From: Planctomycetota bacterium | GTDB lineage: Bacteria; Planctomycetota; UBA1135; GCA-002686595 | Length of the DNA stretch: 64,000 nt | Assembly (NCBI GenBank): GCA_014237855.1 | Contig: JABACD010000013.1 | Span: 1-64,000, forward strand | Reading direction: 5' to 3' | Shown here: in pieces, positions 1 to 39,171 of the stretch | Layout of the letters: every line of letters begins with the position of its first letter | Position numbering within the stretch: the first letter of the stretch is position 1 | The notes under the pieces: generated by a model | The model's input: only the letters and a program-made list of their open reading frames with translations | What the model was told of the DNA's origin: nothing | Database searches by the model: none | Program-made: the position numbers and the translations under genes

Positions 1-1235
1 CTCGGCGCAGCAGCCCGGATGTGGTCTTCCTCGATATCGAGATGCCAGAGGGCACTGGAATCGAGATCCTGCCTGAGTTGATGGAGCTGGAGCCGAAACC
101 CCAGGTTGTCCTCGTCACGGGGCTGGGCGATGTTCAGACCGCTGTCCAGGCCATGAAGCTTGGCGCCTGCGACTTCCTAGAAAAGCCCGTGAACAGGTCG
201 GTAATTGAGGGAGTCTTGCAGCGCGTTCAGCGTGGAATGGCCCTCACACGCGAGAGAGACCTGTTGCGAGGAGAGGTTGCCCGGCTGCGCTCTGGCCCCA
301 TCGTGGGTCAGGCTCGGGTGATGGCGCGCATGCTCGATCAAATCCAACGGGTTGCTTCAACCCCTCGAACCACCGTGCTCGTCACGGGAGAGTCCGGGGT
401 GGGAAAGGAGCTCGTCGCCAGGGCTGTCCACGAGAACTCCGTTCGAGCCGATGGGCCCTTCGTGGCTCTCAATTGCGCTGCGCTGGCTGAGAATCTACTG
501 GAGGCCGAACTCTTCGGTTATGAGCCGGGTGCCTTCAGTGGCGCTCACCCTAAGGGACGGGAGGGTTTGATCGCCGCTGCAAGAGGCGGAACCCTCTTCC
601 TGGACGAGATTGGCGAACTGGCCCCCGAGATGCAGGCCAAGTTGCTCCGTGTACTCCAGGAACGGGTCTTCCGAAGGGTTGGCGGCTCTGATGATCGCCA
701 GACGGACGTACGCTTCGTCGCTTCGACCAACCGCGATCTAGCTCAACAAGTCGAGGCTGGGCAGTTTCGGGAAGACCTCTTCTATAGGTTGAACGTGCTC
801 TCCATCGTCGTGCCCCCCCTGCGGGAGCGACGTGAGGACATCCCCGAGCTTGCCCTGCACTTTGTCGAGCTCTTCCGCAGGGAGTTCGGACGCAACTACA
901 CGGGTTTCTCATCCGATGCCCTGGACGCCCTCCTCGCTCACCCTTGGCAGGGCAATGTCCGGGAGCTTCGAAACGCGATCGAGCGCGGGGCCTTACGAGC
1001 TACTGGTGAAGAGATCACCCGTGCAGATCTGGGACTGGAGGTCGGCCCCCGTATGGACTCCAACCCCCAGCTCAGGTTGGACCTCCAGGGCTTCCTGTTG
1101 AAGGACATGGAAGAACAGCTGATCCGCAGGGCTCTCGAGGAGACTCGAGGGAATCGCAGCCACACCGCCAGGTTGCTCGGCGTCAACAGAACGACGCTCT
1201 ACAACAAGCTGCGCAGCTACCAGATCGACGGCTAG
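1..1235 (+). CDS. sigma-54-dependent response regulator (NtrC/FlgR family), 5' end cut by window
   Basis: The reading frame is open from base 3, so the gene begins before the window. What is visible starts inside a receiver domain: VVFLDIEMP carries the phospho-acceptor Asp, and the conserved Lys lies in FLEKP. An AAA+ sigma-54 interaction domain follows, with Walker A GESGVGKE, the sigma-54 contact loop written GAFSGA (Ser for the usual Thr) and Walker B TLFLDEIGE. A Fis-type helix-turn-helix (RSHTARLLGVNRTTLYNKL) ends the protein. Proteins of this family are phosphorylated activators that remodel closed sigma-54 promoter complexes. It opens a flagellar regulatory locus, and sigma-54-like promoters precede fliK and flgF in this window, so control of hook/rod genes is likely (inference). 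Confidence 0.93.
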   Translation, partial: RRSSPDVVFLDIEMPEGTGIEILPELMELEPKPQVVLVTGLGDVQTAVQAMKLGACDFLEKPVNRSVIEGVLQRVQRGMALTRERDLLRGEVARLRSGPIVGQARVMARMLDQIQRVASTPRTTVLVTGESGVGKELVARAVHENSVRADGPFVALNCAALAENLLEAELFGYEPGAFSGAHPKGREGLIAAARGGTLFLDEIGELAPEMQAKLLRVLQERVFRRVGGSDDRQTDVRFVASTNRDLAQQVEAGQFREDLFYRLNVLSIVVPPLRERREDIPELALHFVELFRREFGRNYTGFSSDALDALLAHPWQGNVRELRNAIERGALRATGEEITRADLGLEVGPRMDSNPQLRLDLQGFLLKDMEEQLIRRALEETRGNRSHTARLLGVNRTTLYNKLRSYQIDG

Positions 1236-2162: not shown

Positions 2163-3104
2163 ATGCGCGTCCTGATCGTTGAGAACGAACACGTCGTCGC
2201 CAAGGCGATGTCGTACGCCCTTGAGTCCAGAGGACATCGGGTTGACATAGCGAACAGCATTGAGGCTGCACTCGCTCTATCCACTCCCGAGGTACTGATC
2301 GCCGATCCGGAACGGCCTGGGCTGTCTGGGCTGGACCTACTGGAACGGTACCGTCGTCAGGGCCTCGCGCCCCGCACGGTATTCGTGAGTTCAGAGCCCT
2401 CCCTCGAGAGCTGTCGCCGGGCCCTGCGCCTTGGCGCAAGTGAGTTCCTCTCCAAGCCCTTCCGGCTCGAAGAACTCGTCCGCGCGGTCGAATTGGAGAC
2501 TGGGAGCCCTGAGGCTCTGTTCGAGGAGACCTACATCACATCGAAGTCCTGCGTTGAGGTGGCCATGAGAGACCTGGCCGCCTTTGCACTACGCCAGGGC
2601 ATTGCGCCTACCTGCCGTGCACGTTGCTGCACAGCCCTGGGAGAGCTTCTCGACAACGTCTGTCGCCATGCTTACCTGGTTCCTGGTGGCGAGCTCCGAG
2701 TCACCGCCACCATCGATCGTCGGGACTTGATCGTGACCGTCTCCGACGATGGGGTCGGCGTTGATGCCTGTGAGCTTGCGATTGACTTCATGTCGATAGG
2801 TGGAGGCCTGGCTCGCGCCTCAGCCCTCGCTGAAGATCTCGAGATTCAGACCGGCCTTCCGCGCGGAACCACCGTGACCCTGCGCTTCGGTGCCTACCTG
2901 GTGGACTACGGGGATGAGGTCAGAGCCGACCTGACCGAACTCGACTTCCTGACACCGGACACTTCCCGCGAGATCCTGAACACCCTCGAATTCGAAGATG
3001 GTGAGCAGTTCTTCCAGCTACCTCCCTCGTTGGCCGTGGTCATCGGTCGGCTGCTGGCAAAGCCCGACCCACGGCGCTTGATCGCCCAGGCATTCAGGAG
3101 CTAA
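2163..3104 (+). CDS. response regulator receiver fused to an RsbW-like GHKL ATPase domain
   Basis: Residues 1-110 form a receiver: phospho-acceptor Asp48 in LIADPERPG and Lys98 in FLSKPF. The usual acidic pair near residue 8 is written ENE. Residues about 130-245 form a HATPase_c_2-type domain: N box GELLDNVCRHA, G1 SDDGVGVD and a GGGLARA G2-like stretch. This is the arrangement of anti-sigma/serine kinases such as RsbW and SpoIIAB. A C-terminal tail of about 70 residues is acidic and not recognised. The family logic is that phosphorylation of the receiver would gate a partner-switching ATPase. Flagellar context suggests control of a sigma or anti-anti-sigma factor, but no STAS partner lies in the window. 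It starts one base after the preceding gene. Confidence 0.75.
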   Translation: MRVLIVENEHVVAKAMSYALESRGHRVDIANSIEAALALSTPEVLIADPERPGLSGLDLLERYRRQGLAPRTVFVSSEPSLESCRRALRLGASEFLSKPFRLEELVRAVELETGSPEALFEETYITSKSCVEVAMRDLAAFALRQGIAPTCRARCCTALGELLDNVCRHAYLVPGGELRVTATIDRRDLIVTVSDDGVGVDACELAIDFMSIGGGLARASALAEDLEIQTGLPRGTTVTLRFGAYLVDYGDEVRADLTELDFLTPDTSREILNTLEFEDGEQFFQLPPSLAVVIGRLLAKPDPRRLIAQAFRS

Positions 3105-3108
3105 GTCC

Positions 3109-4086
3109 ATGTCATCGGACGAAATTGATCCGTCGGAAGAGCCTTCCGACAACCTGGACGATGATCTCTTCGACTTTCCGTCGATGGATACACCTGGCCC
3201 CACGCCCGGTCCTGCTTCGTCCGAAAATCCCTCTTTCGAGGTCGAGGGGAACGTCGACGATCTGTCGGCCCCGCTACCCACTGGAGATCCGCTCGATAGC
3301 GACCACTCCAGCATCGACATGAGTATGGATGCGGAAGACGAGGATCTATTCGGCTTCCCTCCGGTCGAGGGCTCCGCGAGTCCCTTCGATCCTGGCCCCG
3401 CGCAATCCGTTCCGGAGCCGACTGAGGAGCCCGTGGCCGAAGAGCCCCTCCTCGAAAGTGAGATTGACTTGCTGGCAACACAGCCTGCGGAATCGTCGGT
3501 TGCGGAGGGCTCACTGCCAGATCCTTACCTACATCAAGGCCTCGCCGAGCAATTCAATGCATCGCACGAACCCGGCCTCGCATCGCCTCGCTTCAACCTG
3601 GCAAACACACCCAAGGCGCTCTGGGTGCTGACTGGCGCGGCCATCCTGTTCATGGGGGGCATCCTCCTGATTGCCTGGAACCTGACTTCGACGCTTCAGC
3701 AGCAGATCGAAGCGTCCAACAACCTGGCGGCAGTCGGCAGGGCTCTACCCCAACACCAGGTCACTCCGCCGGCCAACAGCTCAATTACATTCGACTCGAG
3801 CGAACTGCTGGAGCCGCAGGTCACAAAGACAACCACTTCTCTGAACCTGGTGAACCCCACCAAGTCGGGGCAACTCGATCAACCCCACGAGAGCATTCTG
3901 ATCGTCGCCGAGAGTGCCATTGGTGAGGGACGCTTCTCGGAGGCTCGCAAGATGCTCTTCATGCTCCTGGCCGAGATTGATCGTGTCCCGAACGTCAATC
4001 GGGAGATCGCCGAGGAACAGGCCACCTTCTTGATTGCCCAGAGCCACAAGTCGGAGGCAGAACTCCTCCGCGGGAGCAACGAATGA
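3109..4086 (+). CDS. acidic single-pass membrane protein of unknown function, flagellar locus
   Basis: I do not recognise this 325-residue protein. Residues 1 to about 160 are strongly acidic and rich in Pro, Ser and Asp, and are probably disordered. They contain a repeated short motif: DDDLFDFPSMD near residue 20 and DEDLFGFPPVE near residue 75. One hydrophobic helix (about residues 166-188, WVLTGAAILFMGGILLIAW) would place the acidic arm in the cytoplasm and the last 130 residues outside. The outer part ends with helices that look like a single TPR-type pair. It overlaps the next gene by 4 bp, and three consecutive genes here look like one envelope module. The repeated LFxFP motifs could be docking sites for a cytoplasmic partner (inference). 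Confidence 0.75.
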   Translation: MSSDEIDPSEEPSDNLDDDLFDFPSMDTPGPTPGPASSENPSFEVEGNVDDLSAPLPTGDPLDSDHSSIDMSMDAEDEDLFGFPPVEGSASPFDPGPAQSVPEPTEEPVAEEPLLESEIDLLATQPAESSVAEGSLPDPYLHQGLAEQFNASHEPGLASPRFNLANTPKALWVLTGAAILFMGGILLIAWNLTSTLQQQIEASNNLAAVGRALPQHQVTPPANSSITFDSSELLEPQVTKTTTSLNLVNPTKSGQLDQPHESILIVAESAIGEGRFSEARKMLFMLLAEIDRVPNVNREIAEEQATFLIAQSHKSEAELLRGSNE

Positions 4087-5558
4087 TCGCCCTGGCCCTT
4101 ACTGCCCTGTGTGCGCTGCCGGCGCCCCAGAACTCTGTCTTCATCGAGCACACGGTCGAGAACGGAGACATCTACTGCGACATCCAGGCTCGCGACTTTC
4201 CCATCAAGAACATGATGGAGAGACTCTGTAGTGAGCTTGATCTCGAGTTGACCGGTTTCGAGGACATCGAGGACTCCCCGCGCGTGACGGTGTACCTACG
4301 GAACCGACCTCTGAACGTGGCCATCGAGTATGCACTTGGCGCAGCCGGGCTCAGTGGAACAGTTGGCGCTGACCGCATCGACGTCACCGTTCAGACGTTG
4401 CCCTTCCCCTCTCGAGAACACTCCCTGCAATCCGCAGAGATATCATTTCTTAGCTCGCTGCAGCGCTTCCCGGATGGATCCTTGGCTCTCGACTCGCGAG
4501 AGCAACTGGCGCAAATCGCCTTGATGCGAGAAGAGACGGAGAAGGCCGCTCGATACTTTGAGCTGCTCTCCGAGTCGAACACCAACACTGCCAAGACAAG
4601 GTCCGCTCATATGAGCGCAGCTGCGCTCTACGTGAAGCTTCAGGACTGGAGTCGAGCAATCCCTCACTACCAGCTCGTGGGAAATATAGAGCTGGACGAG
4701 ACCACACCCGCGGAAGAGGTCGGGGTGATCGCGCTCGCTCGCCGAGAGCTTGCCCGCTGCATTCTCATGCGCGGCGAAAGTCGCCGTGCCTACTACATGC
4801 TTGAGGGCCTTGGCCAGGTCGTGAAGCCCCTCGACGACAGGGATGCCGCTGAGCGCCTGGCACTCGAGGCGCGAGCAAAGATAGGCATGGGCGACTACGA
4901 AGGAGCCCTCCTCTGCCTGGATAGAGCTCAACGCATTCCCGGCCAGCAGCTGAACGAGTTCGAGACGATGGACCTCCGTGCCAAGGCTCTCGAGGCCAAC
5001 GGCCACCCCGTGGAGGCGGCCGTGGCTTGGCTACACTTCAGCCGCGACAAGAGTGATGACGTGAAGCGTGACGCACTCGTCCGTGCCGCTAAATCTGCCT
5101 TGAAGGTAGAGGGTGAGGAGCTCGGAGTCATCTTCCTCCATCACCAGGCGCAAGAAGACGGGCTCGGAGAGGCCCTGATGCCCTACCTGAATGAAGCCCG
5201 TACGCGCCTTGGCCTCGATGCCGAGAGCTACACCGACGGCTCCATCAGTCAGCGTCTACGCCGAGGAGTCCAGCTTGCGACCACCGGGCTTGGTGAAGAA
5301 GCCATTCGCATCTTCACGGCACTGAAGCCCCAGTTCCACAAGCTGCCCGTCACCGAACGTATCGAGTTTGGAACCACGTACGGCCCGCTTCTCGAGAATG
5401 AACAAGGTGTCAGCTATGCAATCGACCTCATCCGCGAGGTCACGCTGACTCTCGATGCCGTTGAAAATCGCTCCAAGCTCTATCTGGTCGCCGGTGAGAT
5501 CTACGAGCGAAACCAGATGTTCAACGAGGCCGCAGCTGCCTATGGAGGACAGCTCTAA
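4083..5558 (+). CDS. exported TPR protein with a secretin N-domain-like (STN) start
   Basis: A short signal peptide (MIALALTALCALPA) suggests export. Residues about 20-100 resemble an STN/secretin short N-domain: a strand, the helix around FPIKNMMERLCSELDLELTGF, a hydrophobic strand VTVYLRNRPLNVAIEYAL and a closing strand. From about residue 120 to the C-terminus there are repeated helical pairs typical of TPRs, such as EETEKAARYFELLSES, LYVKLQDWSRAIPHYQLV and GDYEGALLCLDRAQ. The gene overlaps its neighbours by 4 bp upstream and 1 bp downstream, so the three products are probably stoichiometric partners. TPR scaffolds such as PflA/PflB of Campylobacter brace flagellar motors in the periplasm, and a similar role is possible but not shown. 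Confidence 0.75.
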   Translation: MIALALTALCALPAPQNSVFIEHTVENGDIYCDIQARDFPIKNMMERLCSELDLELTGFEDIEDSPRVTVYLRNRPLNVAIEYALGAAGLSGTVGADRIDVTVQTLPFPSREHSLQSAEISFLSSLQRFPDGSLALDSREQLAQIALMREETEKAARYFELLSESNTNTAKTRSAHMSAAALYVKLQDWSRAIPHYQLVGNIELDETTPAEEVGVIALARRELARCILMRGESRRAYYMLEGLGQVVKPLDDRDAAERLALEARAKIGMGDYEGALLCLDRAQRIPGQQLNEFETMDLRAKALEANGHPVEAAVAWLHFSRDKSDDVKRDALVRAAKSALKVEGEELGVIFLHHQAQEDGLGEALMPYLNEARTRLGLDAESYTDGSISQRLRRGVQLATTGLGEEAIRIFTALKPQFHKLPVTERIEFGTTYGPLLENEQGVSYAIDLIREVTLTLDAVENRSKLYLVAGEIYERNQMFNEAAAAYGGQL

Positions 5559-6355
5559 TGCTTAAGTTCACCTACCTGTTCAACTTCGGACTGGTCGGAG
5601 CGCTTGTCGTTCCGGGAATGGTCAATCAAGGAGCCAGCGTTGAACAGCTGACTCAGGCCATCGAAACTACCGATAACGCGCTGAGGTCACTGCAAGCCAT
5701 CGAGGTTGACCTCGAGAAGAGAGAGTATGCCGCTGTCGAAGAAATACTGGCGGCCACCGAGGCGCCCCTTGGTGGGGAGCGAGAGCGAAGTGAATTGCTC
5801 GACCAGCTCCGTAGCCAGATTGGCGTGCTCGACACCCAGCTGCAGGAGTTCAACACTCCCTCTCCCCTCGAGCATCTCCAAACCGATCCGACTGAGGTCC
5901 TCGCACTTCCGGAGAACGGAGGCACAGAGGTAGCGACCACGGGACTAAGTGACACCGACCGTGTGGAAGTCAGCGAGGTCTGGCCGCCCATTCCAGGTGA
6001 CGGGAGTCCCAGGGTACGCCTCGAAGGCAACCTCATCACAGTCGAGAAGCCAGGCTTCACGGTCGACGCGCTTCGACAAGGTCGTGCCTACTACCGCGCT
6101 GGACGATACCGCGAGGCACTCGTGCTCTTCACTACACGTGAAGGTGAGCCCCAAGCCGATTACTGGATTGGCCGCTGCCTCGAGCGAATGAATCGCCCGA
6201 CAGAGGCTGTGGCAGCCTACACTCGCGTCATCGAGAACGAAGAGAGCGGTGTGCTCGGCGAGCGCGCAGAATCAGACCGTTCCTTCCTTCGCTGGTTGAT
6301 TGACTTTGATCGCAAGGTCACTGATCACGAAGAAGTCGTGGAGGCCAAGAAGTGA
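5558..6355 (+). CDS. membrane-anchored or exported TPR/coiled-coil protein
   Basis: This 265-residue protein begins with a hydrophobic stretch (LFNFGLVGALVVPGMV) that could be a signal peptide or an N-terminal anchor. A charged helical region (residues 30-105) with coiled-coil character follows, then a low-complexity linker. The C-terminal TPR-like section contains GRAYYRAGRYREALVLF, DYWIGRCLERMNRPTEAVAAY and a final helix. The start codon shares its first base with the stop of the preceding gene, and its stop overlaps the histidine kinase start by 4 bp. It is therefore sandwiched between the envelope module and the two-component pair. No catalytic motif is visible and I cannot name a homologue. 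Confidence 0.72.
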   Translation: MLKFTYLFNFGLVGALVVPGMVNQGASVEQLTQAIETTDNALRSLQAIEVDLEKREYAAVEEILAATEAPLGGERERSELLDQLRSQIGVLDTQLQEFNTPSPLEHLQTDPTEVLALPENGGTEVATTGLSDTDRVEVSEVWPPIPGDGSPRVRLEGNLITVEKPGFTVDALRQGRAYYRAGRYREALVLFTTREGEPQADYWIGRCLERMNRPTEAVAAYTRVIENEESGVLGERAESDRSFLRWLIDFDRKVTDHEEVVEAKK

Positions 6356-7548
6356 GCGCTGCGAAGCCCAGCGTTCAGCCGTCTTTCGACGGCACCCCGA
6401 GCCCCGAAGAACTCGGGTCAATGGTCCAGTCTCTTTCGACTATCTCCAATGAGTTGCTCGAAAGTTACGATCGCCTGGCCGAGCGAGCTGAACGGGTTGA
6501 ACAGGAGCTCTGTATCGCCAATCGCGACCTCGAGCAAAAGGTTGCCGAGGTGGAGGCAATCCTCGAGACCCTGCCCGTTGGGGTCGTTGTTCGAGATGTC
6601 GACGATCAGGTCGTGCGCGTGAATGGTGCCCTGACGTCCATCCTTGGAATCAGACCCGAACAGTTCATGGGATCTCCATCAACGGTCCAGCTCCCTCGCC
6701 ACTGCCCCGAGGGCCGTGCAATCAACTGGACTCGCACGGACTCCTCCTCTCGCGTACTCAGCTCTCACCGGTCAGAGATCATCTCCGAAGATGGTGAGAT
6801 CAGCGGCTCGATCGAGATCTTTGATGACCACACAGAACTGGTCTCACTCACCGAGAGAGTTCACCAAATGGACAAGATGGCAGCCCTCGGCAACATGGCC
6901 GCTGGCATTGCTCACGAGATCCGCAACCCCATGAATGCGGTCAAGGGCTTTGCCGATCTCTTCCAGCGCAGCCTGAGCCCTGAGGCCAAGAACTACCGCT
7001 GGGCCTGCCTCATTTCCGAGGGCGTCAAGGAGGTTGACGCAATCATCACGAGCCTCCTGTCTTACTCACGACCCGAGAAGCTTCAGATCCAGGAGATCGA
7101 TCCACAGGAGCTCCTTGAGAGTGCGCAACAGGCAGCCTTCCAACGTACACCTGGTGATCTGGACCCTGGTGCCTGGACCATTTCCTCCAGTTGCAGCGCC
7201 AGCACCTTCCGCGGTGACCACATCAAGCTGCGCCAATCACTGCGCAACCTGATCTCCAACGCCCTTGACATTCAACCAGAGGGCGGAGCACTCCACGTGG
7301 AGGTCCGCGAATCGAACGACGAAGTCACCTTTGAAGTAGACGACGCCGGCCCCGGAATCTCCAAGGAGATTGCTGGACAGCTGACCGACCCGTTCTTCAC
7401 CACTCGTGCCGAAGGCACCGGCCTGGGCCTCTCTCTGGTCCACACGATCGTGCAACTGCACGGCGGCACGATGGAGATAGACCCATCACCCTCCGATTTA
7501 GGAGGAGCACGCATCCGCTTTCACATTCCCAAGTCTCCCCTCCGCTGA
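6352..7548 (+). CDS. PAS-containing histidine kinase (FlgS/FlrB-like)
   Basis: Starts with GTG, overlapping the previous stop by 4 bp. A coiled coil (residues 20-75) leads into a PAS-like domain (residues about 68-165). The HisKA box has the phospho-accepting His188 in AGIAHEIRNPMNAVKGF. The GHKL ATPase follows, with N box LRNLISNALDI, G1 VDDAGPGI, F box DPFFTTRAEGTGLGLSL and a normal C-terminus. There is no transmembrane segment, so this is a soluble kinase, as FlgS and FlrB are. The next gene, 8 bp downstream, is an NtrC-type regulator, so the pair is the expected flagellar sigma-54 two-component system. What the PAS domain senses cannot be told from sequence. Confidence 0.93.
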   Translation: MSAAKPSVQPSFDGTPSPEELGSMVQSLSTISNELLESYDRLAERAERVEQELCIANRDLEQKVAEVEAILETLPVGVVVRDVDDQVVRVNGALTSILGIRPEQFMGSPSTVQLPRHCPEGRAINWTRTDSSSRVLSSHRSEIISEDGEISGSIEIFDDHTELVSLTERVHQMDKMAALGNMAAGIAHEIRNPMNAVKGFADLFQRSLSPEAKNYRWACLISEGVKEVDAIITSLLSYSRPEKLQIQEIDPQELLESAQQAAFQRTPGDLDPGAWTISSSCSASTFRGDHIKLRQSLRNLISNALDIQPEGGALHVEVRESNDEVTFEVDDAGPGISKEIAGQLTDPFFTTRAEGTGLGLSLVHTIVQLHGGTMEIDPSPSDLGGARIRFHIPKSPLR

Positions 7549-7556
7549 TCTCGAAT

Positions 7557-8975
7557 ATGTCCATTCAAAGAGTTCTCATCGTCGACGATGACCCTCTCTC
7601 GCGCGAGTTCCTGGCCGAAGCCGTTGGATCGCTCGGATTCTCCGTCGATCAGGCCGCTTCTGGCGAGGAAGCCCTCACGACGATCACTCACAAGATGCCC
7701 GACCTGGTGCTGAGTGACCTGCGTATGCCCGGCATGGACGGATCTGAGCTCATCGAGTCGATACATCGGCTCCACCCTGGCCTCCCCACGGTCCTGGTAA
7801 CAGCTCACGGAACCGTCGAAGCGGCAGTCGATGCCATGCAGAACGGAGCCGTGGACTTTCTGATGAAGCCCTGCTCACCAGACACGATCGAAATGGTGAT
7901 CGAGCGCATCGATCGCACCCGTCGACTCCAGGATGAGAACGAGTACCTCCGCTCCGAATTGATCGGTAACGCCAATGAACAGGTCATCGTCCATAGCCAG
8001 GCGAGTGTCGATCTGTTGCGCACCTCATCTCGGATCGCGCGCTCGAAAGGTACCGTCCTCATCACGGGGGAGAGCGGCACTGGCAAGGAGCGGATCGCTC
8101 AACACATCCACCAGAACTCTCCGCGCAAGGATGGCCCCTTTATCCGCGTCAACTGCGCTGCGCTGTCAGAGACTCTCTTGGAGTCGGAACTCTTTGGTCA
8201 TGAACGCGGGGCATTTACCGGCGCTCATCGACAACGCCCCGGGCGCTTTGAGCTCGCCGACGGCGGCACGATCTTGCTCGATGAGCTTGGTGAGATTTCC
8301 CCGGCGATGCAGGTCAAGCTCCTGCGCGTCCTCGAAGAAGAAGAATTCGAGCGTGTAGGCGGAACCAAGACCCTGCGCGTCGATGTCAGGGTGATTGCCA
8401 GTACAAACCGCAACCTGCCCGACGAGATTGCAGCGGGTAAGTTCCGGGAAGACCTCTACTACCGCCTGCACGTCCTTCCACTGCAGATCCCGGCGCTCCG
8501 GGATCGGAAGGAAGACATCCTGCCCCTTGCAAATCACTTCCTCGAGATCTACTCGAGGCAGAACGGTCTTGAGACCCCCAGCTTCAGCGAAGAGTCACAG
8601 ACTCAGCTGCTCGCCTGGAACTGGCCGGGCAACGTTCGGGAACTGGAGAATGTGATCCAACGCTCGGTCGTTCTGCTCGAGTCGGACACCGTTTGCCCGG
8701 AAGACCTGTCCTTTGGCCCCGCCACAGGGTTGATCCAACAAGCGAACCAGACCTTACCCCAGGTAGAAGACTCATTCGATCCCAACAACTGGGAGGAGGA
8801 GCTCTTCGATCGGCTCGCCAACTTGCCCGTTGCCGACATTGAACGCATCGCGATCCTCGCAACGCTTCAGTCCACCGGTGGAAACAAGACCGAGGCCGCA
8901 CGGCGGCTGGGCCTGACCGCAAGAACCTTGAGCAACAAGCTCAAGCTCTGGAAGAGTACGGGCCTGCTTACCTGA
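7557..8975 (+). CDS. sigma-54-dependent response regulator (FlgR/FlrC-like)
   Basis: A full-length 472-residue NtrC-family activator. The receiver has Asp54 (LSDLRMPGMDG) and Lys104 (FLMKP). The AAA+ domain has Walker A GESGTGKE (171-178), a canonical GAFTGA loop (218-223), Walker B TILLDELGE and the arginine-finger region NVRELENVIQR. The C-terminal Fis-like HTH is NKTEAARRLGLTARTLSNKL. It lies directly after its likely kinase and 11 bp before flgB. Unlike the first activator in the window, it keeps the consensus GAFTGA. Two sigma-54 activators in one flagellar locus suggests a two-step hierarchy or two inputs (inference). Confidence 0.95.
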   Translation: MSIQRVLIVDDDPLSREFLAEAVGSLGFSVDQAASGEEALTTITHKMPDLVLSDLRMPGMDGSELIESIHRLHPGLPTVLVTAHGTVEAAVDAMQNGAVDFLMKPCSPDTIEMVIERIDRTRRLQDENEYLRSELIGNANEQVIVHSQASVDLLRTSSRIARSKGTVLITGESGTGKERIAQHIHQNSPRKDGPFIRVNCAALSETLLESELFGHERGAFTGAHRQRPGRFELADGGTILLDELGEISPAMQVKLLRVLEEEEFERVGGTKTLRVDVRVIASTNRNLPDEIAAGKFREDLYYRLHVLPLQIPALRDRKEDILPLANHFLEIYSRQNGLETPSFSEESQTQLLAWNWPGNVRELENVIQRSVVLLESDTVCPEDLSFGPATGLIQQANQTLPQVEDSFDPNNWEEELFDRLANLPVADIERIAILATLQSTGGNKTEAARRLGLTARTLSNKLKLWKSTGLLT

Positions 8976-8986
8976 GGGCTCGCGCC

Positions 8987-9346
8987 ATGAATATCGGAAA
9001 CTCCAAAGACCAGTTGTTGATCAAGCTCATGTCGGCCTCGACGCTTCGCTATCGCGTCCTGACCAACAACTTGACCAACCAGAACACGCCTGGATACACC
9101 CGCAAGACGGTGGAATTCGAGGACCTCCTCTCGCAGGAGCTCCAAGAACTAAACCCCGACCTGCTCTCGGTTGAGGCCAAAGTGCGTGCCGACGAACTGA
9201 CACCTGGAAGTCCCGACGGCAACAACGTGAACCCCGAACTCGAGCTCAACGGTCTGCTCCAAAACAGGATGCAGTATGAGCTCTACTCAACCCTCCTCGC
9301 CGGTCGCATGGAACTTCTGCGCTCGGCCATTGAAGAAGGACGTTAG
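8987..9346 (+). CDS. flgB: flagellar basal-body rod protein FlgB
   Basis: 119 residues, a typical FlgB size. The N-terminal heptad region contains the rod/hook signature around RYRVLTNNLTNQNTPGYTRK, and the C-terminal helix (LQNRMQYELYSTLLAGRMELLRSAI) matches the other conserved end of FlgB. It forms the proximal rod next to FliE and FlgC. First structural gene of the long basal-body operon, with flgC two bases downstream. Confidence 0.93.
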   Translation: MNIGNSKDQLLIKLMSASTLRYRVLTNNLTNQNTPGYTRKTVEFEDLLSQELQELNPDLLSVEAKVRADELTPGSPDGNNVNPELELNGLLQNRMQYELYSTLLAGRMELLRSAIEEGR

Positions 9347-10198: not shown

Positions 10199-11764
10199 AT
10201 GAAAGAACGACTTCTTCAACTCTTCGAGCTCTTCCGCTCTGCTCGGGCAGCGACTCGCATCACCCTGGTGATGTCGACGGTTGCAGTCCTTGCCGTTGCG
10301 GGACTCTCAAGCTGGTATGCCAGTCGGCCGGACCTTGTGCAGCTTTGGTCGGGGCTCTCCTCCGCTGAAGCAGCCAACTACAAGCGTGCGCTGGCTCAAG
10401 CCCGAATCTCGTTCAGATCCTCTCCCCCGCCTGAAAATGGCATCTGGGTAGACATATCTGATCGCGACCAGGCTGAGGCCCAGGTTGCCCTCGGGGACTA
10501 TGTTCCCTCTGCCAAGGGCATCCAGGTCACTGATGGTGGCGTGGACAGCGCGTTCCTCAGCGCTCGTACCCGGGACCAAATGGCCGACAAGCGTGAGTGG
10601 CAGGAGTGTGAGCTTCAACTGGAGCGCTTGAACTTCATCGAACGAGCCACAGTCTGCAGCTCCAGCCAGAATCACTCCGCCTTCGCGACTGATGAAGACG
10701 TGACGATCTCCGTGACCCTCGGGCTGCGGCACGGATTCATGCTCGACGACGCCCAGGGGCGAACCGTCGCAACCCTGGTGCGCTCACGGTTCAACGTGCC
10801 CCTCGAGAACATCACCATCGTCGATGAGCACGGAAACCTCCTTCACGATGGTTCTGACTCGATCGGTGGGTTTTCAGGTGAAGATCTCTACGCCTACAAG
10901 CGCCGCTACGACCTCGACGCTGAGAGGCGCGCAAACAAGAGCCTCGAGATGGCCCTCGGGAAGGGCATGGCAAGAGTCACCGTAAATTCAGTCTGGAGCT
11001 ACGATGAATTCGAGTCCATCAAGGAGTCGGCCGTTCCCAAGGACTCCGCCCCCTACTATGTAGAGTCAACCAAGAAGGACGTCGCAGGTGCGTCATCGGG
11101 AAGCGGGGGTCCAGCTGGCGTCTCATCGAATATCACTCAGGATTTCGGTAATGAGAACGCAGCGATCGGGGCCGGCGAGGCGGCAGGGTCATCAAGCACA
11201 TCTACCACTGACGTCACACGCAGCGTGGTTGGCCGTACGACCGAACACCGGCTCAGCCGTACTCCACTAATCACGCGACTCAATGTTGCGTTGGTTGCTG
11301 ATGACAGTGTTGCCGCCAGCTTGACCAAGCTTGAGGGCCTGGTGAAGGCAGCTGTGGGCTTTGATGCGACCCGCAGTGATTACTTCGAGTCTTTCACGAC
11401 CCCTCTGGCGTCGATCGAGCGTGACGAGGAAGGAACACCCGTACTGCCCGAGGCCCCTCTCCCTCTTGAGGAGCCGAATCAGTATCTCGAGCTCGCCCTC
11501 GAACATGGCGTTGAGCTGATTGCAGCCCTGGCCTTCATCATTGTCCTGCTGAAGAGCTTGAGGGGGGCGAAGAGCACCAAGGCGGAGGCTGCTGCTGCGG
11601 CGGCTACCCAGGCCGCAAAAGCCGCTGAAGAGGCGGAGAACATTGACCCTGAGTTGCTTGCCAAGGCTCAGGTAGAAGAGCTCGTTCGCTCTGACCCCGA
11701 GAAGGTTAGCGAGATCCTGGCTAGCTGGGCAACTGCCTCCGAAGAGCACGCTGGAGCAGCCTGA
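10199..11764 (+). CDS. fliF: flagellar MS-ring protein FliF
   Basis: About 521 residues from the ATG at 10199; a TTG at 10193 would add two. The first transmembrane helix (LVMSTVAVLAVAGLSSWYA) precedes the YscJ/FliF ring-building motif region (LWSGLSSAEAANYKRAL..., then QVALGDYVPSAKG). A C-terminal helix (LIAALAFIIVLLKSL) and the cytoplasmic tail that binds FliG close the protein. The tail has an Ala/Lys-rich stretch before the FliG-binding end. The periplasmic middle is Gly/Ser-rich, as is common. It builds the inner-membrane MS ring and part of the C ring. Stop and fliG start overlap (TGATG). Confidence 0.95.
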   Translation: MKERLLQLFELFRSARAATRITLVMSTVAVLAVAGLSSWYASRPDLVQLWSGLSSAEAANYKRALAQARISFRSSPPPENGIWVDISDRDQAEAQVALGDYVPSAKGIQVTDGGVDSAFLSARTRDQMADKREWQECELQLERLNFIERATVCSSSQNHSAFATDEDVTISVTLGLRHGFMLDDAQGRTVATLVRSRFNVPLENITIVDEHGNLLHDGSDSIGGFSGEDLYAYKRRYDLDAERRANKSLEMALGKGMARVTVNSVWSYDEFESIKESAVPKDSAPYYVESTKKDVAGASSGSGGPAGVSSNITQDFGNENAAIGAGEAAGSSSTSTTDVTRSVVGRTTEHRLSRTPLITRLNVALVADDSVAASLTKLEGLVKAAVGFDATRSDYFESFTTPLASIERDEEGTPVLPEAPLPLEEPNQYLELALEHGVELIAALAFIIVLLKSLRGAKSTKAEAAAAAATQAAKAAEEAENIDPELLAKAQVEELVRSDPEKVSEILASWATASEEHAGAA

Positions 11765-15143: not shown

Positions 15144-15163
15144 ATCATCGATACACACACACA

Positions 15164-15883
15164 ATGAACAGGTTCATCCCCAAGATCATGTACGGCCTCA
15201 TTGGCCTTACCCTCTTCGCTGGCTCTTATGTTGGCATCGCTCTCGTATCAGGTGCACCACTGCATCAGGTCGCAGGCATCAGCATGTTTGTTTCTACTCC
15301 CGAGGGTGCGGCTGAGTCGGGAGATGGTTCGAACATGGCCGATGTGGAGGGAGCAGTGCCTACCCCCTCGGAACTCATCGAGGCCAATGTGGGGTTGCTC
15401 GGTGCCTACATGATCGAGTCTCCCTTTTCTGGCTCTGAATTGCGCAACCTGGTCGGTGAATTGAAAGAACAGGTTCGCGAGCAGACCATCGAACGTGAGC
15501 GCTTGCGGATGCGCAATCTCGAGCTCGACGAATGGGAACAGGCACTGCGTGAGAGACAGGCTGAACTGGCCGAGCTTCGGACCAAGCTGGAAGATCTCGA
15601 AGGCGCTGTAGACCTACGGATGTCGGAGCTGATCCGGGATGAGTCAGCAAGAGACGAGAAGGAACTCCAGGGCTGGAAGGACCTTGCCAAGCTGTACACG
15701 GGAGGTGATGCCGCGGTCAACGCCAAGATGCTGACCGAGGAGTCCCCCAAGGATGCAGCCAAGATTCTCCGCCAGCTGACCGATGCCGATGCTGGAGAGA
15801 TCCTGCGGCTGATAACTCCCAACTCGGTGCGAAAGGAGTACTCAGACGCTTATCGGGATGCTGAACCGGCAGCCCCTGAGTGA
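15164..15883 (+). CDS. motE: MotE-like flagellar motor protein (MgtE N-domain)
   Basis: 239 residues from the ATG at 15164; an in-frame ATG at 15113 would start inside fliJ. There is one N-terminal membrane helix (IMYGLIGLTLFAGSYVGIALV). A long periplasmic coiled coil follows (residues about 95-170, LRNLVGELKEQVREQTIERERLRMR and on). The C-terminal MgtE_N-like bundle reads AKMLTEESPKDAAKILRQLTDADAGEILRLI. This layout is that of MotE, a periplasmic chaperone or spacer for MotB/MotC known from other flagellar systems. It is the last gene before a strong terminator, with the stator genes immediately beyond. Confidence 0.75.
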   Translation: MNRFIPKIMYGLIGLTLFAGSYVGIALVSGAPLHQVAGISMFVSTPEGAAESGDGSNMADVEGAVPTPSELIEANVGLLGAYMIESPFSGSELRNLVGELKEQVREQTIERERLRMRNLELDEWEQALRERQAELAELRTKLEDLEGAVDLRMSELIRDESARDEKELQGWKDLAKLYTGGDAAVNAKMLTEESPKDAAKILRQLTDADAGEILRLITPNSVRKEYSDAYRDAEPAAPE

Positions 15884-16823: not shown

Positions 16824-17591
16824 ATGGGCGCCAAGAAAGCAGACCCGCCCCCCGGGGCACCCGATTGGATTGTCACCTTTGCGGACATGATTTCGCTGCT
16901 GGTGACCTTCTTCATCCTTCTCATGACCTTCAGCAGCTTGGAGTCGTTCGACTTCTTTCGCGTGAAGGGAAACAACGTCGGCACTCCTGGAGTGGTCGCT
17001 TCAAACGGGGCCTCTAGCAGCCAACCTCCGCCTGAGCTGGACATCATGTGTGCAAAGGATGCTCTCAGGGGGGCTCAAATTCCCCATTCGAGGCCCTCTT
17101 CGGAGCTGCTCGAGGGAGTTTCTGACCTCGGGGCCAAGGACACTGACGAGCACGAGGAGATCGATCTGTCCGCTCTAATGGACGGTATCCACATCCAGTA
17201 CGACGAACGCGCCGCCTTCAAGCCCGGATCGATCGAACTCTCGCCTTACCTCTCCAAGGCCATCAAGGAATTAGCCGGGGTCCTCGAGCACTACCCCTAC
17301 ACGGTGATCTTCGAGGGTCATACTGATTCGGCCTTCCGAAAGACCGGCGAGTTTCCTTCGGAGGACTACCTGAGCGTTGCACGAGCTGAAGCAGTGGCTC
17401 ACCTCGCGCTGTCCACCAGCGAACTCAATCCGCTGCAGGTTCAAATAGCCGGGCACGGATCTGATCGACCACTACAGACAAATGACACGCCCGACGGTCG
17501 CCGGATGAATCGGCGTGTTGAGGTAAGGGTCATGTCCCTCAGCAAGCGCCAGGCTGATGCGCTAAAGCTCTCCGATCGATCTGATGGGTAA
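16824..17591 (+). CDS. motB: flagellar stator protein MotB (first copy)
   Basis: 255 residues. An N-terminal plug-type start is followed by one membrane helix, DWIVTFADMISLLVTFFILLMTF, with the ion-binding Asp in FAD. After a linker of about 100 residues comes an OmpA-like peptidoglycan-binding domain: FEGHTDSAFRKTG, LSVARAEAVAHL, GHGSDRP and NRRVEVRV. The key Asp and Arg of the peptidoglycan pocket are present. This copy is the standard partner of MotA. Its stop overlaps the start of a second motB-like gene by 8 bp. Confidence 0.93.
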   Translation: MGAKKADPPPGAPDWIVTFADMISLLVTFFILLMTFSSLESFDFFRVKGNNVGTPGVVASNGASSSQPPPELDIMCAKDALRGAQIPHSRPSSELLEGVSDLGAKDTDEHEEIDLSALMDGIHIQYDERAAFKPGSIELSPYLSKAIKELAGVLEHYPYTVIFEGHTDSAFRKTGEFPSEDYLSVARAEAVAHLALSTSELNPLQVQIAGHGSDRPLQTNDTPDGRRMNRRVEVRVMSLSKRQADALKLSDRSDG

Positions 17592-18282
17592 GTTCGAACC
17601 TCCCCAGAAAGCCTCGCCGCCGGCGTACATGGTGTCCTTTTGCGACATGATGACGCTCATTCTGACCTTCTTCATTCTGCTTGTTTCGATGTCGCAGAAG
17701 CAGCAGGTTGGTCTCATGGCCGCGGGCTTGGGCTCCTTCATCGTGGCAGTGAAGTCACACGGGCTCAACGGAGTCCTCACCGGACAAGAGAAAGCAGACG
17801 TCTTTCAGTACGTACGGCGAAAATTCAATGTGCCCTACGATGTAGAGGAGGATCGCCTCACGGATGTTGCCGATGCCTCCAACCTGGAGCTGATCCGGAC
17901 TCGGTTGCTGCACGCCCTTGAGCCCCATTCGGAACTACACTACCCCGCTGTAGTCGAGTTCGACGATGGCTCCGCCTTGATCGGAGAAAAGGGCACCAGC
18001 TACCTGGACCTTCTTGCGCCGTCGCTTCAACCGAAACACCGCCAGACCCTTCTGATAGAAGGACACGCTAACGATGCTGGCCCTGAATTTGGGGGCAACA
18101 ACCGGCAGCTAGCCACAGCGAGGGCCATTCTTATCAAGGGCTACCTGGTCGAGAAGTATGGGTTCGCCCCCGAAAGGGTTGAGGCACGCGCCTGGCACCA
18201 AGAAGTTCCCACTGGTGGGCAAAAGAATCAATCTGTGGACATTCGCCTCCTGACCCCTGGGGCCGAAACAGCCGACAACTAG
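17584..18282 (+). CDS. second MotB-like stator protein with altered peptidoglycan-binding domain
   Basis: 232 residues, same plan as the preceding gene: an N-terminal helix PAYMVSFCDMMTLILTFFILLVSM with an Asp in FCD, then an OmpA-like domain. The peptidoglycan motifs are off-consensus: GHAND for GHTDS, RAWHQEVPTG for GxGxxxP, and NQSVDIRL for NRRVEIRV, losing the paired arginines. The RA-helix (LATARAILIKGYL) is kept. It overlaps motB by 8 bp and must be co-translated. It could form a heterodimer with MotB in one stator, an alternative stator, or a modifier such as MotC/MotX-like partners. Paired MotB homologues also occur in type 9 and gliding motors, but the flagellar setting is clear here. 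Confidence 0.85.
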   Translation: MGKFEPPQKASPPAYMVSFCDMMTLILTFFILLVSMSQKQQVGLMAAGLGSFIVAVKSHGLNGVLTGQEKADVFQYVRRKFNVPYDVEEDRLTDVADASNLELIRTRLLHALEPHSELHYPAVVEFDDGSALIGEKGTSYLDLLAPSLQPKHRQTLLIEGHANDAGPEFGGNNRQLATARAILIKGYLVEKYGFAPERVEARAWHQEVPTGGQKNQSVDIRLLTPGAETADN

Positions 18283-35379: not shown

Positions 35380-35396
35380 AGCAATGAGGGTGCCAA
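35380..35396 (-). promoter_or_regulatory. sigma-54 (-24/-12) promoter before flgF
   Basis: On the - strand the sequence reads TTGGCAC-CCTCA-TTGCT. The -24 element TTGGCAC and -12 element TTGCT are exact at the conserved bases, with the required five-base gap (GG and GC ten bases apart). The predicted start is about base 35369-35370, one or two bases before the flgF GTG. It lies 100 bp past the flgE terminator, where a new promoter is expected, and two sigma-54 activators are encoded nearby. Confidence 0.8.
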
Positions 35397-39154: not shown

Positions 39155-39171
39155 AGCAAGGGGAATGCCAA
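39155..39171 (-). promoter_or_regulatory. sigma-54 (-24/-12) promoter before fliK
   Basis: On the - strand TTGGCAT-TCCCC-TTGCT. The invariant GG and GC are ten bases apart; only the last base of TGGCAC differs. The predicted start is near 39144, two bases before the fliK ATG. The spacing to the start codon is almost the same as at flgF, which supports both calls. Confidence 0.72.

Follow-up and report, generated by a model that had tools for sequence, protein, structure and literature searches.

A three-gene module of Planctomycetota flagellar loci: candidate periplasmic scaffold of the flagellar motor

What role could be played by three overlapping genes that lie among the flagellar regulators of a planctomycete and correspond to no core flagellar gene? 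The genes, here called A, B and C, occupy positions 3109 to 6355 of the window, by which we mean the whole 64,000-nucleotide stretch analyzed (contig JABACD010000013.1, positions 1 to 64,000, of the Planctomycetota assembly GCA_014237855.1). The window is the start of its contig and belongs to a 5.3-Mb genome. All three genes are on the forward strand; A overlaps B by 4 bp and B overlaps C by 1 bp, in agreement with a preliminary description of the locus that gave overlaps of 1-4 bp and proposed either a trans-envelope scaffold or a sensor of basal-body assembly. We lean slightly towards the view that A, B and C together build a periplasmic part of the planctomycete flagellar motor that is anchored in the inner membrane, a scaffold resembling PflA and MotK. 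The genes and the domains they encode are the following.

3109..4086, forward strand: gene A, 325 amino acids; a cytoplasmic tail, acidic and probably disordered, then a single transmembrane helix and a short periplasmic hairpin resembling a tetratricopeptide repeat (TPR)
3163..3177, forward strand: first DLFxF motif of A, residues 19-23 (DLFDFP at residue 19)
3343..3357, forward strand: second DLFxF motif of A, residues 79-83 (DLFGFP), in a conserved alignment block with invariant F81
3616..3672, forward strand: transmembrane helix of A, residues 170-188, the sole hydrophobic segment in a hydropathy scan
4083..5558, forward strand: gene B, 491 amino acids
4137..4391, forward strand: STN/PilQ-N0-like domain of B, residues 19-103, predicted from the model and profile searches
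4413..5543, forward strand: TPR solenoid of B, residues 111-487, about 12 TPRs by Pfam and the model
5558..6355, forward strand: gene C, 265 amino acids; hydrophobic N terminus, coiled coil (residues 28-99), linker and TPR domain (residues 171-264)

Gene order and linkage to flagella

The families of the phylum bear numbers (f1, f2, etc.), with f1 being the window's own. Through FliG, 62 loci were collected, and the relatives include Planctomycetes bacteria Pla163, Pla86 and Poly30. We take Pla163 to be Rohdeia mirabilis and Poly30 to be Saltatorellus ferox, two species that a taxonomy lookup places in Planctomycetota. Downstream of C in the window lie genes for a soluble kinase (HK2) and an NtrC-type regulator (NtrC2), followed by the rod gene flgB. 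This order, B-C-HK2-NtrC2-flgB, is found in 48 of the 49 named loci with sufficient upstream DNA: of the 62 FliG-derived loci, 48 have all five genes in order, 13 are truncated less than 8 kb upstream, and a single one, L113, whose contig is as long as that of f6 genome G084, lacks them. The A-B junction is a 4-bp overlap in 29 of 38 cases and a 1-bp overlap in 7, counts that, like those of B-C gaps, are biased towards overlap because our start picker prefers starts close to the upstream stop. The motif DLFxF is present in the A tails of all 40 members of the named set, rows chosen for their position and with a profile covering the DLFxF region; at least two copies occur in 13 of them, and shuffling of the tails gives an expectation of 0.065 tails with the motif. 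Because of the conserved B-C order and this excess of DLFxF, we do not regard the A-B-C module as a product of chance.

Presence of B and presence of FliG agree in 71 of 78 f1 genomes (both present in 59, both absent in 12, B only in 4, FliG only in 3; Fisher P 1.6e-8, uncorrected for relatedness), with B called at E < 1e-15 and one genome with a FliG match below the cut-off, G136, treated as lacking FliG. Completeness is 71-80% in the seven discordant genomes. These genomes share members with the named loci, and the two surveys are therefore not independent. A restriction of B to f1 was suggested by its detection in 34 of 37 genomes of its own family and 0 of 24 of other families; this idea was discarded, as broader profiles matched other families. 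In 294 genomes of the phylum, such a broader B profile matched 62 at E <= 1e-12. We kept the 39 in which the match covers the N-terminal domain of B (start no later than position 45, end no earlier than 200); the 23 others, mostly TPR-only, were set aside. FliG is encoded in all 39, compared to 164 of the 294 genomes overall (hypergeometric P 1.3e-11, uncorrected for relatedness), and a manual count places B and FliG 5-10 kb apart on the same contig in at least 22 of the 39. The flagellar link made in the preliminary description is thus borne out by both the neighborhood survey and the co-occurrence with FliG, and homologs mostly outside flagellar loci, the outcome it had named as contrary, were not what we found.

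The cassette extends well beyond f1. Among 20 further loci, 12 show B-(C)-HK2-NtrC2-FlgB (f15, f26, f27, f49, f52, f54, f71), and of the other eight, two (f6) have no flgB, two (f79) have no HK2, one (f34) has neither HK2 nor NtrC2, one (f32) has no HK2 and a weaker match to B, and two are truncated by contig ends. Another 20, mostly from genomes that have FliG but no B match at E <= 1e-12, include nine with the order B-(C)-HK2-NtrC2-FlgB (f15, f19, f25, f43, f49, f52, f53, f61), one with B and FlgB without HK2, one with B and HK2 without FlgB, two with HK2-NtrC2-FlgB without B, and seven with neither at flgB. In f19, f53 and f61 the TPR gene specifies a single long protein that has a hydrophobic stretch at its N terminus; this protein is a positional counterpart of B and not a proven homolog. 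From other families of the window's order 20 loci were read; six have the full cassette (f7, f8), one is cut, one is odd (f2), and 12 have no cassette at flgB (f6, one f3 locus and one f7 locus, L124), some of these with little upstream DNA. The f6 flgB loci had led to the statement that other families of the order do without the cassette. We corrected it, since the cassette lies elsewhere in the same genomes (L156, L157), and for the same reason make no use of an argument from a joint absence of module and kinases.

Several loci depart from the common order. In L154 (f34) the order is flgK-flgL-motA-motB-B-C-flgB with no kinase (Pfam for motA and motB, inspection by eye for flgK and flgL), and in L182 (f60) B-C-flgB is found without HK2 and NtrC2 between; an invariable coupling of B to HK2 is ruled out by these two loci. 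In f79 (L158, L164), A and B are fused in one open reading frame of 856 or 833 amino acids, with C, an NtrC-type gene and FliL after it. Two loci, L042 and L101, carry a second, full-length paralog of B between fliJ and a MotE-like gene. Other arrangements were also observed. Locus L131 (f2) has a TPR gene, a degenerate kinase, an NtrC-type gene, an open reading frame resembling a FliF-FliG fusion and the start of a MotE-like gene, with no flgB found nearby, and is possibly a rod-less flagellar relative. In L184, a FlgN/FliT-like gene (weak Pfam match) at 10975-11433 separates the long TPR gene from the kinase, and similar short genes were seen by eye in L172, L173 and L166.

Domains of the three proteins

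Protein A was previously described as an acidic single-pass protein with repeated DLFxFP motifs, and this agrees with the two copies, the one transmembrane segment and a tail with 40 aspartate and glutamate residues vs 2 lysine and arginine residues. Lysine and arginine precede the transmembrane helix and none stand just after it, predicting that the N terminus is inside. The helix is followed by 137 residues, for which a Pfam TPR match was obtained in few of the 40 A relatives. The f8 relatives read EDLFELGG and EDLFDFAN, and f7 A proteins are without DLFxF; judging by these sequences, the motif is kept in f1 and partly in f8 and is not universal. Searching the PDB with a profile of A returned nothing useful (FimV, E 0.073).

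Protein B is probably exported, with its hydrophobic N terminus serving as a signal peptide; in the hydropathy scan B lies under the threshold of 1.6. An AlphaFold2 model built with 47 sequences (mean predicted local distance difference test score, pLDDT, 91.5) shows an alpha/beta domain at residues 19-103 and then paired helices to the end. When the profile of the N-terminal domain was compared with the PDB, PilQ chains were the seven best matches (best E 0.00096), and Pfam STN matches 9 of 21 B members, all weakly (best E 0.0019). Both this similarity and the order of strands and helices in the model point to an STN/secretin N0 domain, as expected from the earlier annotation of B as an STN-like/TPR protein. 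A contig search with the window's B sequence alone found no relative.

The TPRs in both B and C are backed by Pfam and by the models, and the coiled coil and TPR domain reported for C are likewise recovered. The model of C has a mean pLDDT of 80.7, with a loose linker and values mostly above 95 in the TPR domain. A fold search with this model gave generic TPR and helical matches only, none at E < 0.001.

Signaling and motor genes around the module

The module is flanked by two signaling sets, HK0 and RRHATP upstream and HK2 and NtrC2 downstream. The preliminary description placed it between two signaling pairs and flgB, which is right as to the signaling sets; it is the HK2-NtrC2 set, not the module, that touches flgB. 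The neighboring genes are listed below.

3..1235, forward strand: NtrC1, a sigma-54 activator cut by the contig start
1418..2161, forward strand: HK0, HisKA-like (HisKA E 0.021), phospho-acceptor histidine not at the usual place
2163..3104, forward strand: RRHATP, receiver and HATPase_c_2 domain (anti-sigma-type ATPase), directly upstream of A
6352..7548, forward strand: HK2, soluble PAS-HisKA-HATPase kinase of FleS/FlrB-like architecture, without a transmembrane segment, overlapped by C over 4 bp
7557..8975, forward strand: NtrC2, receiver, sigma-54 AAA domain and Fis-type helix-turn-helix, ending 11 bp before flgB
8987..9346, forward strand: flgB, first rod gene of the operon (TIGR01396 65.7 bits vs cut-off 59.05)

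A soluble PAS-HisKA-HATPase protein beside an NtrC-type regulator and rod genes is the arrangement of FleS/FlrB-type kinases, so that HK2 and NtrC2 resemble FleSR, FlrBC and FlgSR; unlike our locus, these systems are not described with an envelope module in the excerpts of PMC7064773 consulted. In the upstream set, the window's HK0 has RRGIETPL at the position of the H-box histidine, and its f6 counterpart in L156 has LAHELRNPL. From these sequences HK0 may be a pseudokinase in f1. The RRHATP counterpart in L162 (4464-6369) adds a SpoIIE domain and is followed by a STAS protein, a pair that looks like a partner-switching system within the flagellar cassette.

Sigma-54-type sites and motor genes were also found elsewhere in the window. 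An exact -24/-12-type site at 35380-35395 (reverse strand) precedes the start of flgF by 11 bp, and one with a single mismatch at 39155-39170 (reverse strand) precedes a fliK-like gene by 12 bp, both in the correct orientation; the names flgF and fliK-like were assigned by eye. The number of sites is not significant (4 matches in the window, a count reached in 6 of 100 shuffles), and their positions alone are of interest. A MotE/FlgY/FlbB-like protein is encoded at 15158-15883 between fliJ and motA, about 10 kb from B. It has a membrane segment, a coiled coil and a FliG_M-like tail (Pfam E 0.059), and a profile built on it finds a relative at the same position in most loci. After motA come two overlapping motB-type genes (16824-17591 and 17584-18282), an arrangement also present in f7.

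Motor scaffold, kinase sensor or both

Periplasmic TPR proteins of flagellar motors offer the closest comparison. According to the consulted excerpts of the papers cited here, TPR proteins near flagellar genes occur in about 52% of flagellated species and have been proposed as PflA homologs (PMC11870540), and the E-ring protein MotE/FlgY/FlbB with TPR spokes is widespread (PMC13023049, PMC11870540). PflA, for which a structure with PflB has been published (PMC12222027), carries an AMIN domain like that of PilQ (PMC13023049, PMC11870540), and MotK of C. sphaeroides combines AMIN and TPRs and is required for rotation (PMC10954123). Scaffold parts are also said to resemble type IV pilus proteins (PMC11870540), a resemblance with which a PilQ-type N0 domain in B would fit. 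The term "planctomyc" is absent from the main texts of PMC13023049 and PMC11870540, and no description of the A-B-C module was found in the consulted parts of the open-licence literature, the supplementary table of PMC11870540 excluded.

In such a scaffold, exported B would be the main arm, with its STN/N0 domain for protein contact followed by the TPR superhelix. C could multimerize through its coiled coil and TPRs and bridge B to a neighbor, and A would be the membrane anchor, with a cytoplasmic DLFxF tail that binds a motor or signaling partner. A, B and C would then bind each other in the vicinity of MotE (the E-ring protein), the MS ring and the stators, with a possible effect on the stators, and may be expressed from a single transcript. 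They would be produced alongside the sigma-54 kinase-regulator pair, the expected activator of rod and hook genes. These predicted parts amount to an inner-membrane anchor with periplasmic proteins; no part was seen to reach the outer membrane, which speaks against the "trans-envelope" of the preliminary description. Its statement that no standard flagellar gene explains the module holds for core genes and fails for the known TPR scaffolds PflA, MotK and FlcB, which do fit.

With PflA and PflB, the spoke and rim of the proximal disk in Campylobacter and Helicobacter, the module shares a large, by prediction periplasmic TPR superhelix (about 12 TPRs in the B model) behind a beta-containing N-terminal domain, a membrane-anchored TPR partner and a flagellar role. 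It differs in having a third protein, C, in the short periplasmic part of A, where PflB has a long TPR array after its transmembrane segment, and in the location of its genes within a sigma-54 two-component operon. In MotK/MotE of Cereibacter sphaeroides and CC_2058/CC_2059 of Caulobacter, an exported N-domain and TPR protein is encoded near motA/motE and needed for rotation (PMC10954123). B too is encoded with flagellar genes in a genome with a MotE/FlgY-type gene, and one relative has a copy of B beside that gene, but the N-domain type is another one and the window's B is distant from motE and coupled to a kinase. FlcA, FlcB and FlcC of Borrelia are comparable by description only: several proteins, some with TPRs, forming a periplasmic motor collar on the E-ring protein (PMC13023049). 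We place the module with the TPR motor scaffolds, as a member of no tested family.

The scaffold is favored by L154, where B and C adjoin motAB and flgB without a kinase, and is further supported by the conserved gene order, the co-occurrence with FliG, B-C-flgB in L182, the B copy beside motE in L042 and L101 and the A-B fusion in f79. A number of observations weigh against it. The N-terminal domain of B is alpha/beta and of STN/PilQ-N0 type rather than an AMIN-type beta-sandwich. As a rule, B and C go with the kinase and not with stator genes. No cassette is present at flgB in the f6 genomes G041 and G045, where NtrC-HK0-RR-A-B-C-HK2-NtrC2 stands intact elsewhere (all genes read in L156, profile only in L157); the f6 flagellar loci read keep the order fliJ-motE-fliL with no TPR gene beside MotE. 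Structural similarity adds some support for a scaffold: in a Foldseek search of the B model against 350,542 chains, 9hmf_K, which belongs to the periplasmic motor scaffold of C. jejuni, took second place (E 5.4e-6). TPR solenoids match one another widely, however, and the best match was O-GlcNAc transferase (E 2.2e-6). The length of 9hmf_K, 773 residues, suggests that it is PflA. As the TM-scores (template modeling) are low and the VIA-align list for B consists of generic TPR proteins with Z near 20, the match is only a lead; families absent from that list are not thereby excluded. Without an AMIN domain, and with a Foldseek rank being weak evidence by itself, we dropped the name of PflA or MotK homolog for B.

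Another possibility, which we consider somewhat unlikely, is that A-B-C is a dedicated sensor of HK2 in which B and C detect the stage of the basal body and A relays it across the membrane. That the DLFxF tail would control HK2 or RRHATP, and through NtrC2 and sigma-54 the timing of rod and hook genes, is equally tentative. Such a sensor is supported by the place of A-B-C immediately before HK2, with an overlap in the window, by an order kept in f1 and many other families, by a kinase that in the window has no transmembrane segment, by the conserved motif in a cytoplasmic tail and by the exact sigma-54-type site upstream of flgF, and "an unidentified factor" is allowed as the route of the signal to FlrB and FleS (PMC7064773). 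The f6 cassette, which stays together with its kinases away from flgB, also favors this sensor. Yet L154 and L182 have B-C before flgB without HK2 and NtrC2, L170 and L175 have HK2-NtrC2-flgB without detected B, HK2 is missing from the f79 cassette and DLFxF from f7, and the excerpts of PMC7064773 report the MS ring and rotor as what kinases of the FleS/FlrB type sense and mention no such module. Neither set of evidence is decisive; each exception may be a single event. The interpretation in the preliminary description, which offered both scaffold and sensor, is supported in part. Both roles could also be combined, with a periplasmic TPR scaffold on the nascent motor signaling its completion via the DLFxF tail to a FleS-like kinase, although we regard this as rather improbable.

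General envelope proteins, for example CpoB/Tol-Pal-like proteins of wall or outer-membrane maintenance that came to lie in a flagellar operon by chance, are a very unlikely explanation. C does have the coiled coil and TPR layout of CpoB/YbgF, the B profile has a CpoB match, and both proteins match YbgF under the cut-off, but C scores far below it (15.8 bits vs 90.1). B is mostly absent where FliG is absent, with 12 of 78 f1 genomes missing both and only 4 of 78 having B without FliG, and no tol or pal genes were recognized alongside, though no systematic search for them was made. Still harder to credit is that B and C are chaperones of flagellar type III substrates wrongly read as exported: their weak matches to SycD/LcrH-type TPR chaperone models are far under the cut-offs, both proteins begin with hydrophobic segments, and the STN domain is periplasmic in known proteins.

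TPR motor scaffolds are emerging in one phylum after another. If the scaffold assignment is true, Planctomycetota have a conserved set with an N-terminal domain of PilQ-N0 type instead of AMIN, usually encoded in a regulatory operon. The module is also a concrete candidate for what soluble kinases of the FleS/FlrB type sense. The combined role would be the most interesting outcome, since the module would then serve the motor structurally and at the same time supply the sensor still missing from sigma-54-controlled flagellar assembly across much of the phylum.

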